DNA of 64,000 nucleotides from NCBI RefSeq assembly GCF_017356035.1, contig NZ_JAFIQX010000001.1:124001-188000 (forward strand), given 5' to 3'. Shown here one piece after another: positions 5,002 to 43,473 of this stretch (position 1 is its first letter; each line of letters opens with the position of its first letter). The notes under the pieces were generated by a model that did no database searches, was not told the DNA's origin, and saw nothing but the letters and a program-made list of their open reading frames with translations. The position numbers were made by a program, and so were the translations under genes. The stretch is from Longitalea luteola (GTDB taxonomy: Bacteria > Bacteroidota > Bacteroidia > Chitinophagales > Chitinophagaceae).

Positions 5002-5020
5002 AAATGAAATAGTATTACAT

Positions 5021-5050
5021 AAAAAAAACGTCCCGCCAAGCGGGACGTTT
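5021..5050. terminator. Bidirectional intrinsic terminator
   Basis: A perfect 9-bp stem ACGTCCCGC / GCGGGACGT around a CAA loop is flanked by A8 on the left and T9 on the right. It serves the esterase on the plus strand and the TonB receptor on the minus strand. The GCCAAGC core recurs, degenerate, in the array at 27.2-27.65 kb. Confidence 0.9.
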
Positions 5051-5073
5051 TTTTTATCGGATCGTTTATCTTA

Positions 5074-18547: not shown

Positions 18548-21094
18548 ATGAAGAAAGTCCCCGCTGGTATAGTCCTGTTATTATTCATTTCCAGTTTGGC
18601 TTTGGCTCAGGTTAAATCGCCCGATCAGTTCCTGGGGTATAAGTTAGGTAGCCGGTACACCCCTCATTTTAATATTGTCAATTATTGCAGGCAGGTGGCG
18701 GAAGCGGTGCCCGATATGGTAAAATTGGAACAGTATGGAACTACCCATGAAGGACGGCCTTTACTATTATTGTATGTGACCTCACCTGGCAACCTGGCGC
18801 GCCTGGAAGCCATAAGGCAAAATAACCTGCGGCTGGCCGGATTAACGCCCGATAAAATGGCCCCCGATGAAAAGGCGCCGGCCATTATTTGGTTAAGCTA
18901 TAATGTGCATGGTAATGAAACCTCTTCGTCAGAAGCTGCCATGCTTACGCTATATGAACTGGTGAACCCTTCCAATACAAGAACCAAAGACTGGTTACAG
19001 CATACGGTTATCATTATCGATCCCTGTATCAATCCCGACGGCCGCGACCGGTACGTGAACTGGTTCAATTCGGTGGTAGGTATACAACCCAATCCGCAGC
19101 CTTTTACCCGCGAGCATGCTGAGCCCTGGCCCGGTGGACGGCCCAATCACTATTATTTCGACCTGAACCGCGACTGGGCCTGGCAAACCCAGATTGAAAC
19201 CCAGCAGCGCATAATAAAATACAACCAGTGGTTGCCTCAAATACATGTCGATTACCACGAACAATACTATAATAACCCCTATTATTTTGCCCCCGCGGCC
19301 GAACCATACCATGAAGTGATCACCCCCTGGCAACGCGATTTTCAAACCATCATTGGCCGAAACAATGCCAAATATTTCGATCAGCAGGGCTGGTTATTCT
19401 TCACCAAAGAGCGGTTCGATCTTTTTTATCCCAGCTATGGAGATACGTATCCATTATATAAAGGCGCCATCGGAATGACGTATGAGCAGGGCGGGCATAG
19501 CCGGGGCGGTGCTGCTGTCATCAACCGCGATGGCGATACGCTCACGTTGTGGGACCGGCTGTACCACCATTTCACTACGGGCATGAGCACGATTGAAGCC
19601 ACTGCGCAAAATGCGCCAAAAGTGGTGCAGGAGTTTAAAAAGTATTACGATAAAGCACGTACTTCACCTCCGGGAGAATTTAAGGCTTACGTCATAAAGG
19701 CCGATGAAGGAGATAAAATCACCCGGTTGAAGCAACTGCTAACGCGAAACAATATTGAATGGCGCCATACCGGCATTGGCAGCTACAATGGCCTCAATTA
19801 TTTCACGGGCAAAATGGCGCCGTTAAAAACCGACAGCCAGGATATAGTGGTCAATGCCAATCAACCCAATGCCAACCTGGTAAAAGTACTTTTTGAAAGG
19901 AACTCCCTGTTGAGTGATACGGTAACTTATGACATTACCGCCTGGTCAATTCCCTATGTTTACGGACTTACAACCTATGGATTGAGCAGCTATATTACCG
20001 GTTTGCCGAAATCGGCAGTACCTGATAAAGCGAAAACCAAAACCATCAATGGTGAGAACAGCGTAGCGTGGCTGATACGCTGGAACGGATTGAACAGCGT
20101 ACAATTCTTAAGCAGCGTATTGCAACAGAAAGTAAAAGTGAGGTATGCTGAGCAGCCGTTCAAGGCCGGCAATGAAGATTTTGATAAGGGAACACTTATA
20201 ATCACCCGCACCAGCAACCAATCGTTAGGTACTTCCTTAAGCAGCATTATCAATAAAGCTGCCGACAAAGCAGGCATTGGCTATACAGCTGTCGCTTCTT
20301 CTTTTGTTGACAAAGGATTTGATTTTGGTTCAGAAAAAGTGCATACCATGCAGGCGCCCAGGATCGGGCTGCTGGCGGGCGATGGCATTTCTTCCTTAAG
20401 TATGGGGGAGGTATGGCATTTCTTCGATGTGCAGATCGGTTACCCGGTAAATGTTATCTGGGCAAGCGATCTTACCAAAAATGTGTTGCGCGACCTCGAT
20501 GTGCTGATCTTGCCGGATGGCAATTATCGTTTCCTTTCGGACCGGTCAATGAACGAAGCGCTGAAAGACTGGGTCACAACCGGCGGCAGGGTGATTGCGC
20601 TGGAAGGTGCTGTGGCGCAACTGGCTTCTGCAGACTGGGGCATCAAGGTCAAAAAAGGGGATGATGATAAAGGCGATAAAGAGGATAGGGAAGACAAAAA
20701 AGATGATTACAGTATGTTGCGTCGCTATGAGAACCGGGAGCGGGATTTTATACCAGGATATAATCCCGGTTCCATTTATAAAGTGGAACTGGACAATTCG
20801 CATCCGCTGGCCTTTGGTTACGACGATACTTATTTTACAATCAAGCAGGATAATACCATTTACGAATTCTTCAAGGAATTTGGCTGGAATGTGGGCGTCA
20901 TAAAAAAAGACAACCAGGTAGCGGGTTTCGTAGGCTCAAAGTTGAAAGATAAATTAAAGGATGGATTGATCTTCGGCGTACAGGAAATGGGGCAGGGTGC
21001 GGTTGTTTACCTGGCCGATGATCCGCTGTTCAGAAGCTTCTGGGAAAATGGCAAGCTGTTGTTCAGTAATGCGGTATTTATGGTGGGACAGTAG
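18548..21094 (+). CDS. Secreted M14-family zinc carboxypeptidase
   Basis: The 848-residue protein has a signal peptide (about 1-20, cut after LALA). The M14 zinc site is complete: HGNE at 121-124 gives two ligands, QIHVDYHE at 231-238 the third, and TYEQGG at 311-316 the catalytic Glu313. DLNRDWAW at 205-212 is a substrate-binding element of this subfamily. The C-terminal half (about 600-848) looks like a class I glutamine-amidotransferase-like fold used as a fusion domain in such Bacteroidota peptidases, and contains a highly charged KGDDDKGDKEDRED segment. It should trim peptides in the periplasm or outside the cell. Its TAG stop is the first triplet of the 86-bp repeat that follows. Confidence 0.9.
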   Translation: MKKVPAGIVLLLFISSLALAQVKSPDQFLGYKLGSRYTPHFNIVNYCRQVAEAVPDMVKLEQYGTTHEGRPLLLLYVTSPGNLARLEAIRQNNLRLAGLTPDKMAPDEKAPAIIWLSYNVHGNETSSSEAAMLTLYELVNPSNTRTKDWLQHTVIIIDPCINPDGRDRYVNWFNSVVGIQPNPQPFTREHAEPWPGGRPNHYYFDLNRDWAWQTQIETQQRIIKYNQWLPQIHVDYHEQYYNNPYYFAPAAEPYHEVITPWQRDFQTIIGRNNAKYFDQQGWLFFTKERFDLFYPSYGDTYPLYKGAIGMTYEQGGHSRGGAAVINRDGDTLTLWDRLYHHFTTGMSTIEATAQNAPKVVQEFKKYYDKARTSPPGEFKAYVIKADEGDKITRLKQLLTRNNIEWRHTGIGSYNGLNYFTGKMAPLKTDSQDIVVNANQPNANLVKVLFERNSLLSDTVTYDITAWSIPYVYGLTTYGLSSYITGLPKSAVPDKAKTKTINGENSVAWLIRWNGLNSVQFLSSVLQQKVKVRYAEQPFKAGNEDFDKGTLIITRTSNQSLGTSLSSIINKAADKAGIGYTAVASSFVDKGFDFGSEKVHTMQAPRIGLLAGDGISSLSMGEVWHFFDVQIGYPVNVIWASDLTKNVLRDLDVLILPDGNYRFLSDRSMNEALKDWVTTGGRVIALEGAVAQLASADWGIKVKKGDDDKGDKEDREDKKDDYSMLRRYENRERDFIPGYNPGSIYKVELDNSHPLAFGYDDTYFTIKQDNTIYEFFKEFGWNVGVIKKDNQVAGFVGSKLKDKLKDGLIFGVQEMGQGAVVYLADDPLFRSFWENGKLLFSNAVFMVGQ

Positions 21095-21349
21095 TTAATG
21101 TGATAATGTGATAATTAGCTAATGTGATAATGGAATGCAGTTCCGATAATCAAGGGGATTGTGGGTGCCGGGGCAAGTAGTTTATGTGCTAATGTGATAA
21201 TTTGCTAATGTGCTAATGGAATGCAGTTCCGATAATCAAGGGGATTGTGGGTGCCGGGGCAAGTAGTTTATGTGCTGATGTGATAATTTGCTAATGTGCT
21301 AATGGAATGCAGTTCCGATAATCAAGGGGATTGTGGGTGCCGGGGCAAG
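21092..21349 (+). repeat. Tandem repeat, three copies of an 86-bp unit
   Basis: Copies lie at 21092-21177, 21178-21263 and 21264-21349, each beginning TAGTT. The core TGGAATGCAG recurs at 21131, 21217 and 21303, exactly 86 bp apart. Copies 2 and 3 differ at about one base, and copy 1 differs in the first 40 bases. The first half of each unit is the GCTAATGTG word repeat also found at 40.6, 42.1 and 43.4 kb; the second half (GGAATGCAG...GGGCAAG) is seen only here. The first copy starts on the stop codon of the M14 gene. Confidence 0.95.
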
Positions 21350-21350
21350 T

Positions 21351-21388
21351 AAGAGCCATTCACCATTGACTATTGACCATTGACCATG
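21351..21388 (+). repeat. ATTGACCATTGACC-type word repeat
   Basis: Three imperfect iterations of CCATTGAC follow directly after the 86-bp tandem repeat. The same word family occurs near 15.5, 26.12, 27.67 and 44.75 kb. Confidence 0.55.
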
Positions 21389-26152: not shown

Positions 26153-27103
26153 TTAAAAAATTAACTCCATTTGTATGTTACATCTTTCATACGGAGTAGC
26201 ATGCCCGACCACTTTCTTAAATCCTAATTTATGATACAGGTTAATGGCAGGTTGCAGGATGGTGTTGCTTTCAAGATACAGTTTTTTAGCACCCAGTGAT
26301 CTCGCTTTGTCAACAGCCGCTTTGCCCAGGAGCCACCCGATGCTTTTGCCCTGGGCTGCGGGTGATACGGCCATTTTAGCGAGTTCATATTCATATACCG
26401 GGTCATCCATTTTGAGCAGCGCACAAACACCAACAGCTTCATTGTTGTACAGGGCAACCAGAATATGTCCGCCTTTGGCGATAATGTTCTTTTGTGGATT
26501 GTCCAGCGCCTTATGATCGGCAGCTTCCATTTTGAAATATTTCGAGATCCATTCTTCATTTAATCGCTTGAAAGCCTCCTCGTGGGCCGGTTTGTAATCG
26601 ACGATCTGCACTTCACGGCTTTCGCGTAATTTCTTTTGTTCCTGCACACGGCGTAACAATGATTTCTGTTGTAAAAGGAACTCCCATTCTTCGATCGCTT
26701 TCCACAGATCATGCCTTGTTTGCGATAAAGCTTCTTCTATAGCATTGGTAACATCGAGGTACTGGGGAGCAATGTTCTGCATGATCTCTTTGCCTTTTTT
26801 TGAGAGACCTACAACATTTTTACGGCCGTCCAGCTTGTCTTTTTTTTCAGTGACAATGCCGTGTTTAACCATTTCCCTGATGATGGTGCTTACCGACGGG
26901 TGCGAGTGGCCGATCTCTTCGGCAATGGCTGTGATGGTTTTGTCCTGTCCCAGCGATAGCGCATGGAAGACCGGAAACCATTTAGGCTGCAGTGATACAT
27001 TGTACATTTTATATACCTGGCCCGCGTCTTCCGTTATCTGTTCACTTAACCGGCGCAACCGGCTTCCCAGCGCCATTTTACCGGCATTATTGTAGAAGTC
27101 CAT
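26153..27103 (-). CDS. MarR-type regulator fused to a GNAT acetyltransferase
   Basis: The 316-residue protein joins two domains. Residues about 1-150 are a MarR-like winged helix: ITAIAEEIGHSHPSVSTIIREM near 55-76 is the recognition helix region, followed by a wing (KKDKLDGRKNVVGLSKKG). Residues about 165-316 are a GNAT fold: ELAKMAVSPAAQGKSIGWLL carries the acetyl-CoA pyrophosphate loop (Q-G-K-x-x-G), and INLYHKLGFKKV is the usual C-terminal motif. Such fusions are known in several bacteria and may tie acetylation of a small molecule to transcription control. It is encoded convergently to the symporter operon. Target genes and acetyl acceptor are unknown. Confidence 0.9.
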   Translation of the reverse strand: MDFYNNAGKMALGSRLRRLSEQITEDAGQVYKMYNVSLQPKWFPVFHALSLGQDKTITAIAEEIGHSHPSVSTIIREMVKHGIVTEKKDKLDGRKNVVGLSKKGKEIMQNIAPQYLDVTNAIEEALSQTRHDLWKAIEEWEFLLQQKSLLRRVQEQKKLRESREVQIVDYKPAHEEAFKRLNEEWISKYFKMEAADHKALDNPQKNIIAKGGHILVALYNNEAVGVCALLKMDDPVYEYELAKMAVSPAAQGKSIGWLLGKAAVDKARSLGAKKLYLESNTILQPAINLYHKLGFKKVVGHATPYERCNIQMELIF

Positions 27104-27199
27104 TATTTAATCAATTATGTAATTAATTACGTAATTTACGACCTTTGTTGGAATTACACGAAGTAATCTTTAAAATTTTCAGGGATGGAGTTCCGAAAT

Positions 27200-27655
27200 G
27201 TAAGGCCGCGCCTGCAAGCGGGACAAAAAAAGGATCACACGGGAAAGCGCCGAAAAAAAACGGCGTTTTGCCTCCAAGCGAACCACCCAAAAAGGTAAAT
27301 CATGCCGGGGCGATATCAAGGATAAAGCAGTATGCGCGACGCGAAGCAGGTCAAATAAAAAAACAGCTCGGCAAGCGGTCCCAAACAAAAAGAGCGGGTT
27401 GCGCTGGGGCGATATCAGGAAACAAAGCGGCATGCCCGACGCGAAGCTGGACAAAACAAAAAGCAGCGCCGGAAGCGATACCAAACAACAGATATTTAGC
27501 GTCGCCAAAGACGCACACAAAAAAGCGGACCACGCCGGGAAGCGCCAAATAAAAAAGCCGGTACGCCGCCAAGCGCGACCTTACAAAAAGTAGCCGGGCC
27601 CTCAAGCGGACGCACATAAAAAAAGTGGGTCCCAGCGGAAAGCGGACCCACTTTG
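27200..27655. repeat. Degenerate array of about 14 terminator-like ~33-nt units
   Basis: Plus-strand units read roughly GC-rich block, CAAGCG or GAAGCG, then a block ending in an A-tract. AAGCG-type cores occur at 27216, 27245, 27276, 27343, 27373, 27443, 27473, 27540, 27571, 27604 and 27640. A higher order of about 100 bp is visible: GACGCGAAGC recurs at 27338 and 27438, and GGGGCGATATCA at 27307 and 27406. On the minus strand each unit reads CCGCTTGGCGG-like core plus T-tract, the same core as the terminator at 5021-5050. The last unit (27622-27654) is a perfect terminator. Open frames on both strands show an 11-codon rhythm and are considered by-products. Confidence 0.75.
27622..27654 (-). 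terminator. Intrinsic terminator of the DUF2911 gene
   Basis: A perfect 11-bp stem AAAGTGGGTCC / GGACCCACTTT surrounds an 11-nt loop, with A7 on its left, which reads as a U-tract on the minus strand. It lies 23 nt past the stop of the DUF2911 gene and is the last, intact member of the array. Confidence 0.88.
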
Positions 27656-27676: not shown

Positions 27677-28516
27677 TTATTTCAGGGTAGCCAGCAACTT
27701 TTGGTTCAGGGCTACATAATCATCGTTCTTGGCTTCTTTGGCCAGCTCGATCGATTTGTTAGCTGATTCAATGGCTTCCTGCTTTTTGCCCAGTTTGGCC
27801 AGGCAATTGGCTCTCTGATGTATAACCCAGAAAGCTTTCGGATTAGCCTCAGCAGCCTTGTTAAACCATTCCAGTGCTTTGTTCAGGTCTTTCCCTGTCT
27901 CCATGTAATACATGGCGGCGCCGAAATAAGGATGGCTCTTGGGATCTTCTTTTTTCATCAACTCATCGATCTGGGCCATTACTTTGCCGTCGATCTCTGT
28001 AGTGATGGGAAGAACTACATTGGTTTGATCCCACATCATATGCAATTCAATGCTGGTTGGTTTTACATTGGCGAATTGCATAGTAAAGGTTTCTACCTTG
28101 TTTTTAATGCTTTCAGGTTTTGCCTGCACACGCACTACATCATTTTCCTGTTTGTAAGCTGCTGGCGAGGTAACATCCAGTTGTTTGGTAAGGATGATCG
28201 TCCAGGAACTCTTATCAGGAATGGTGAGCAAACCATATTTACCGGCAGGTATTTTCTTTCCGCCAATAGTTACTTCGTCAGCAAATGTAAGCGTGGTCGC
28301 CTGGTTGGCACCGGTACGCCATACTTTGCCGAAAGGCACCAGGTCGCCAAATACTTTGCGGCCTTTGATACCCGGACGGGAATATGCTAATTCAATAGAA
28401 CCCAATCCAAAATCCTGTTTAATGGTTTGTGTGGTCGAAGGCGCAGGTGTTTTTAATTGCGCCTGAGTGGTAAATGCAAATGCAAGCATGCATCCAATCA
28501 AAATGGTCTTTCTCAT
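27677..28516 (-). CDS. Exported DUF2911 protein with C-terminal tetratricopeptide repeats
   Basis: The 279-residue protein has a signal peptide (1-19, ending TTQAQ). Residues about 28-175 form the DUF2911 domain, with the characteristic SRPGIKGRKVFGDLVPFGKVWRTGANQAT-type block split across residues 46-75 and KIPAGKYGLLTIP near 90-102. Residues about 195-275 form two or three TPR-like helical pairs (AAMYYMETGKDLNKALEWF, NCLAKLGKKQEAIESANK). DUF2911 is common in Bacteroidota periplasms and has no known activity. The gene is monocistronic and followed by a strong terminator. Confidence 0.88.
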   Translation of the reverse strand: MRKTILIGCMLAFAFTTQAQLKTPAPSTTQTIKQDFGLGSIELAYSRPGIKGRKVFGDLVPFGKVWRTGANQATTLTFADEVTIGGKKIPAGKYGLLTIPDKSSWTIILTKQLDVTSPAAYKQENDVVRVQAKPESIKNKVETFTMQFANVKPTSIELHMMWDQTNVVLPITTEIDGKVMAQIDELMKKEDPKSHPYFGAAMYYMETGKDLNKALEWFNKAAEANPKAFWVIHQRANCLAKLGKKQEAIESANKSIELAKEAKNDDYVALNQKLLATLK

Positions 28517-40640: not shown

Positions 40641-40747
40641 TTGCTAATGTTAATGTGCTAATATGCTAATCGGCTTATGTGCTAATGCTCAAGGATCCTT
40701 ATCTGCATTTCATTAGCATAATATCACATTAGCAAATTAGCTAATTA
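40641..40747. repeat. GCTAATGTG-type inverted repeat element
   Basis: The left arm at 40641-40688 holds iterated GCTAATGTGCTAAT words and the right arm at 40709-40747 their reverse complements (CACATTAGCAAATTAGC). The element fills the whole space between the carboxylase start and the stop codon of the O-methyltransferase gene, and the right arm runs through that stop (40745-40747). Confidence 0.8.
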
Positions 40748-42039: not shown

Positions 42040-42069
42040 AGTAGTATTATTATTGTGAATATAAAGAAT

Positions 42070-42206
42070 AATGTGATAATGTGCTAATTTGCTAATGGGC
42101 TAAGGCTAATGAATACAGGCTAAGGTGTATGCTTCTCGTGAACGTTGTGAGGCTCTGAAACTGCCCTCATTTGGGGAATTAGCACATTAGCTAATTATCA
42201 CATTGG
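42070..42206. repeat. GCTAATGTG-type inverted repeat element
   Basis: The left arm 42070-42100 (AATGTGATAATGTGCTAATT...) and right arm 42177-42206 (AATTAGCACATTAGCTAATT...) are imperfect reverse complements separated by about 75 nt. The element lies between the divergent hypothetical and DUF3810 genes, and the right arm ends 14 nt before the DUF3810 start codon. Any promoter for either gene would have to be inside it. Confidence 0.75.
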
Positions 42207-42219
42207 CAAAATAACATTT

Positions 42220-43340: not shown

Positions 43341-43473
43341 CCAATTAGCTAATTTGCTAATGTGCTAATTCTTCAAATGCCGGCCGCCCCTATAAAAGCG
43401 AAACTCAGGTGAAGCAGCCTTGTAGCCTGTATTTTTTATTAGCACATTAGCAAATTATCACATCAGCACATTA
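43341..43473. repeat. GCTAATGTG-type inverted repeat element
   Basis: The left arm 43341-43370 (CCAATTAGCTAATTTGC...) and right arm 43438-43473 (ATTAGCACATTAGCAAATT...) are reverse complements with a 67-nt interior. The reverse complement of the right arm matches the third copy of the 86-bp repeat (21266-21301) at about 34 of 36 positions, showing one dispersed family. The right arm includes the dcd stop codon (43471-43473). Confidence 0.8.

Follow-up and report, generated by a model that had tools for sequence, protein, structure and literature searches.

Between a gene for a DUF2911 and TPR protein and a gene for a MarR-type regulator fused to a GNAT acetyltransferase, the genome of Longitalea luteola carries a series of short, similar sequences, which raises the question whether these are terminators, a functional element of another kind or simply repeat DNA. 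A sequence-only reading of the window (the whole stretch of 64,000 nucleotides analysed here) had described positions 27200-27655 as about 14 degenerate terminator-like units with a period of about 33 nt and a higher period of 100 bp, interpreted as a multiplied and decayed terminator or a noncoding repeat. Based on the analyses below, we propose with a probability of roughly 0.78 that the array is a lineage-specific, single-locus bacterial intergenic minisatellite beside a terminator, which has expanded and subsequently decayed. The features of the locus are collected in Table 1.

Table 1. Features in and around the spacer between the DUF2911 and MarR-GNAT genes (positions in the window).
Feature	Position	Strand	Basis
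Downstream gene, MarR-type regulator fused to GNAT acetyltransferase	26153..27103	-	Pfam PF12802, PF00583
Palindromic operator-like block of the TTACGTAAT..ATTACATAATT type, outside the array, before the MarR-GNAT gene; limits approximate	27104..27145	-	By eye in 9/9 spacers
Imperfect 16-nt inverted repeat (14/16), arms 27199-27214 and 27570-27585, around almost the whole of u1-u12	27199..27585	.	Repeat finding, shuffle test
Degenerate tandem array, units u1-u13, period ~33 nt	27200..27624	.	Autocorrelation, repeat finding, unit comparison
Second-order duplication, 100-bp period (three units), 1.8 copies, 79-80% identity	27307..27488	.	TRF, repeat finding
Candidate intact intrinsic terminator after the DUF2911 gene	27622..27654	-	Folding, hairpin survey, like-placed hairpin in relatives
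Upstream gene, DUF2911 + TPR protein	27677..28516	-	Pfam PF11138, E 4.1e-53

The array and its degeneracy are directly observed. Positions 27200-27655 can be cut into 14 head-to-tail units (u1-u14) of 28-37 nt (mean 32.6), their limits being placed by eye with one cut behind each A-tract, and the mean identity among them is about 54%. The loose consensus of the plus strand, CxCGCCGxxAAGCGxxxCCAAAxAAAAA, holds an AAGCG motif and the A-tract. Ten runs of at least five A are present, all on the plus strand and thus T-tracts on the minus strand, and the plus strand has no run of at least five T. In a comparison of every unit with all the others, 13 of the 14 reached a z of at least 2.5 over their own shuffles (range 1.3, for u4, to 6.4), and reverse-complement scores fell below the direct ones in all 14. 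Autocorrelation is raised at lags of 29-37, 62-69 and 94-102, corresponding to about 33, 66 and 99-100 nt. The formal test of periodicity, which the existence of an array had been made to depend on, is positive: the combined band contrast gives a z of 12.2 and is reached by none of 5000 dinucleotide shuffles, while lag 100 has a z of 5.3 versus a maximum of 4.2 across all lags in 1000 dinucleotide shuffles. The 100-bp higher period is recovered as well, by TRF (matches 79%) and by the recurrence of 27324-27388 at 27424-27488, offset by 100 nt with 80% identity. Head-to-tail units of about 10-100 nt with a periodicity above chance, the hallmark of a minisatellite, are therefore found here. The locus also resembles bacterial intergenic minisatellites or VNTR loci as a general kind in being noncoding, degenerate, confined to one locus and one lineage, and marked by a higher-order block duplication. 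Among the publications listed for this topic, no account of decayed tandem terminator arrays appeared.

Three other readings were rejected. A repeat protein is rejected because 10 of the 14 unit lengths, and likewise the 100-bp period, are not divisible by three, none of the six ORFs of at least 50 aa in the array has a Pfam match near the cut-off (a single match has E 0.22 and 11.4 of 26.5 bits) and the array is absent from orthologous spacers; the earlier advice not to take the open frames for proteins was sound. A known structured RNA is rejected since Rfam gives no match at the gathering score in the whole window (best sub-threshold match L20_leader, 21.3 of 58.7 bits). Phased bent DNA is rejected because the A-tracts, whose phasing at 33 bp is strong (R 0.93), have no clear helical phase (R 0.28 at 10.5 bp; R 0.50 at 11.0, p ~0.08).

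A GC-rich stem-loop directly before a T-tract, as expected of an intrinsic terminator, occurs at only one of the ten T-tracts tested. This site, 27622-27654, combines a perfect 11-bp stem and an 11-nt loop with a T7 tract that has three T inside the stem; it overlaps the last unit u14 (27625-27655) and sits just beyond the stop codon of the DUF2911/TPR gene on the minus strand. Folding of the 32 nt ahead of each T-tract in comparison with shuffles identified it as the sole strong stem (z -2.7, -15.3 kcal/mol), as the sequence-only reading had noticed by saying that the last unit alone still folds perfectly. The other nine fold no better than shuffles (mean z +0.18). RNAalifold finds no consensus pairs among the 14 minus-strand units, with the limited power of a sequence alignment at such divergence, and a terminator consensus scan lists none within the array, yet takes loops of 3-8 only and thereby misses the intact hairpin too. 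Folded as a whole with the intact hairpin included, the array has a z of -2.0 on the minus and -2.9 on the plus strand. Given the shuffle-like folds and the lack of consensus pairs, the units share a sequence but no demonstrated terminator structure, and the label "terminator-like" does not suit them all. The hairpin at 27622-27654, judged by its sequence, is a good candidate for the terminator of the DUF2911 gene and likely works as such.

The alternative that survives best, though itself unlikely, is that of functional tandem terminators, in which the degenerate units would be weak back-ups shielding the MarR-GNAT gene from DUF2911 read-through. It agrees with the location of all ten T-tracts of at least five on the same strand as the upstream gene, with the kinship of the 27622-27654 unit to the array, and with a partial stem of -9.0 kcal/mol, the best of the other nine, ahead of the T-tract behind 27557-27588. 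However, it has to face the shuffle-like folding of those nine tracts, the absence of consensus pairs, and the arrangement in relatives, where a single strong hairpin with a T-tract was seen by eye at a like position in each of the eight with a DUF2911 ortholog.

The kinship of the intact hairpin with the array is modest: one of 300 shuffles reaches its score, and p is 0.018 versus random hairpins. Since it scores as kin of the other units, a terminator may have been the unit that was duplicated. The earlier interpretation thus stands in so far as the array is a noncoding repeat that multiplied, then decayed, and ends in a single intact terminator; a terminator is a possible source unit. The second terminator brought into play, that at 5020-5056 (5021-5050 in the sequence-only reading, which considered its core to be the same), exemplifies the single intrinsic terminators of this genome in having a T-tract and GC core like the array consensus; its palindrome is intact, whereas nine of the ten array T-tracts lack such a stem. 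Its core, chosen post hoc, is closer to the units than random hairpins of the same composition (p 0.0085). Our terminator survey covered 464 kb of the 7.30-Mb genome and yielded 41 hairpin rows at 38 hairpin places. The motif GCTTG occurs in one of the 41 rows, which is the 5020-5056 terminator itself. By summed scores against the units, this terminator (203) and 27622-27654 (182) are the highest of the 38 places, but per base they rank only tenth and ninth. The shared core is only weakly supported.

Comparison with relatives provides the evolutionary context. DUF2911 orthologs with 80-95% identity are present in eight of nine same-genus relatives, the ninth (G008, 61% complete) having a 31% match only, and the MarR-GNAT gene lies next to DUF2911 in all eight. 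A search of plasmids with DUF2911 returned 17 records, all below 60% identity. The intervening spacer measures about 113-272 nt in these relatives versus 576 nt here; these lengths include the stop codon as well as, in L005, L007 and L008, some last codons. The palindromic block preceding the MarR-GNAT gene is a putative operator of that gene. The array is missing from all eight orthologous spacers, a direct observation that holds between species, as each relative belongs to another species and none is a strain of the same one. Seemingly other short repeats were seen by eye in this spacer in G002 and G003. Of the genomes compared, the closest relative is the sister G007, followed, according to the MarR-GNAT protein, by Niastella species. 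The G007 spacer contains no significant array remnant (p 0.36; p 0.35 in a second test), and an apparent match of the G007 terminator aligned to u12 likewise fell short of significance (p 0.35 and 0.19). Of five relatives' spacers, three score above simple shuffles (L006, p 0.007; L007, 0.033; L005, 0.047). Array remnants were nevertheless rejected for these three, since the opposite strand scores nearly as well or better, and against shuffled arrays all eight spacers give p values of at least 0.12.

The unit is equally confined within the host genome. A unit profile run against 1.264 Mb produced ten matches in the array (E 0.26-6.2) and one outside (E 15). In the whole genome, with 150 of 1467 candidates scored, all eight matches at E<=1 fall in the array (best E 0.0092), so that the proposed search for similar arrays yielded no second array of the 33-nt unit among the candidates scored; given these E values the profile is weak, and a more decayed array could escape it. 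In 38 other genomes (at most 150 candidates per genome) the profile gave 15 scattered matches at E<=1, not above chance and in no cluster. The array DNA itself gave six short matches of 18-26 nt elsewhere in the host genome (E 0.006-0.54, among the matches scored) and short matches only in 58 other genomes (best 28 nt, E 6.5e-4; at most 10 candidates scored per genome); inspection by eye of the match in G005 and of five others revealed no array. A dispersed family of the unit was rejected for the host genome and its relatives on the candidates scored. A scan for chains of T-tracts proved not specific for the array: with tracts of at least four, it found four chains of four in the host sample (the array and three others) and two in the sister, and with at least three tracts of at least five per chain, seven in the host sample, two of them within the array. 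By eye, the chains outside the array look non-repeated.

Tandem arrays of other kinds abound in the intergenic DNA of this genome, as was directly observed when the suggestion to examine further intergenic spaces was followed. TRF was applied to 1.264 of the 7.30 Mb (the window, L039-L058 and L081-L120), with "intergenic" meaning segments of at least 60 nt outside ORFs of at least 150 aa, a definition that includes small genes and RNA genes. It detected 296 intergenic arrays versus 40-43 in three shuffles, occupying 27,015 of 254,250 intergenic bases (10.6%) versus about 2,550 in the shuffles. The sister G007 has 68 merged arrays in 400 kb, with 7,069 of 69,645 noncoding bases in arrays. A period divisible by seven is found in 140 of the 296 arrays, versus 20 of 214 in five shuffles, and the array at 27200-27655, unlike these, has no 7-nt base. 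The other arrays resemble the abundant intergenic tandem heptamers described in bacteria, namely the TAACTGA repeat (PMC4679880) and the G-rich heptamers of Xanthomonas and Nostoc (PMC4692102); the 7-nt unit on which those repeats are built is not seen in the array under study. The window also contains arrays built on an 8-nt motif (TAATGTGC / ATTAGCAC type) at 21085-21351, 40647-40747, 42069-42208 and 43343-43473, one of them inside an 86-bp unit repeated three times. Long arrays occur at L041 6740-8190, L086 19427-19883 and L046 17360-17713; their units measure 103-341 bp and have a consensus that appears by eye to contain a tRNA.

Conservation within the units was compared with simulations at matched identity, the ancestors being built from the consensus composition of the units. 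Column unevenness is 0.191, versus 0.154 (sd 0.013-0.014) in a star simulation, where A-runs occur in 4-5 units on average (maximum 10-11; 10 observed) and AAGCG in 2.4 units (maximum 6 in 25 runs; 8 observed). Of 450 runs of a tandem-duplication simulation, 142 were identity-matched; among these, 4 reached the observed unevenness, 8 the observed count of units containing a run of five, and 29 the level of the shared 5-mer. Since most matched simulations show more even conservation, the A-tract and core may be under constraint; the pattern hints at this without amounting to proof. Such constraint would be expected of a binding-site array for a protein or RNA acting on the T-tract/CGCTT core and kept by selection, which is next in order and improbable. 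The uneven columns and the 33-bp phasing of the A-tracts accord with it, but the weak helical phase given above, the failure to detect a second site cluster among the candidates scored in the host genome, and the absence from orthologous spacers do not. A variant with a still smaller chance of being correct would see expanded selected sites in the array: a multiplied terminator that kept its T-tract/CGCTT core and lost its stems, becoming a cis element (for pausing, Rho-like binding or the binding of an RNA chaperone) through which the DUF2911 transcript end is coupled to the MarR-GNAT gene.

The least probable alternative is a MITE-like mobile element, present once and now decayed, that would carry the minisatellite inside it and be bounded by the 16-nt inverted repeat. 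A pair of this kind is uncommon in shuffles (4 of 300), and presence in the host lineage only, relative to the orthologous spacers, would suit an insertion. Several genome copies, as expected of a MITE, were however not found: no further copy of the body was detected in the host genome among the candidates scored, nor of the ends at no more than one mismatch, a threshold at which three relatives have one match each. Moreover, no target-site duplication is evident by eye, and u13 and the terminator unit fall outside the arms. With the left arm at the array start and the right arm inside u12, the arms are not both ends of the array; the inverted repeat may have been left by an inserted element or may stem from inverted unit cores. 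BrickBuilt of Porphyromonas gingivalis, a minisatellite-MITE, is similarly an intergenic minisatellite with small inverted repeats at its ends, but consists of a 23-nt unit with 19 copies in one genome (PMC4596501), whereas our array has a 33-nt unit at one locus with no family found.

The minisatellite reading can be cast as a sequence of three events. An ancestral DUF2911 gene would have been closed by a single intrinsic terminator, with a short spacer leading on to the promoter of MarR-GNAT, the arrangement of the eight relatives. A segment of about 33 nt comprising the A-tract and GC-rich core, perhaps the terminator itself, would then have given rise to tandem copies through replication slippage or unequal recombination, and a 100-bp block would have been duplicated at least once thereafter. 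Finally, copies not needed for termination would have decayed to their present mean identity, while the gene-adjacent copy stayed an intact terminator. Against this reading stand the uneven column conservation, the lack of the 7-nt base that many other arrays have, the absence of a significant remnant from the G007 spacer, and the 16-nt inverted repeat. Between the host genome and G007, 41% of fourfold sites differ in DUF2911 and 50% in MarR-GNAT, and at this divergence the 54% identity of the units would fit, and is compatible with, an expansion around or before the split from G007.

In summary, the array most likely represents ordinary repeat DNA, enlarged through copying errors in the host lineage and later decayed, and it probably has no function. 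It illustrates how an intergenic tandem repeat can grow next to a terminator that looks functional, here in the Niastella/Longitalea group, and it serves as a warning that neither the ORFs of such an array nor its decayed units should be annotated. For studying slippage in this group, the heptad-rich intergenic arrays are the more useful lead.
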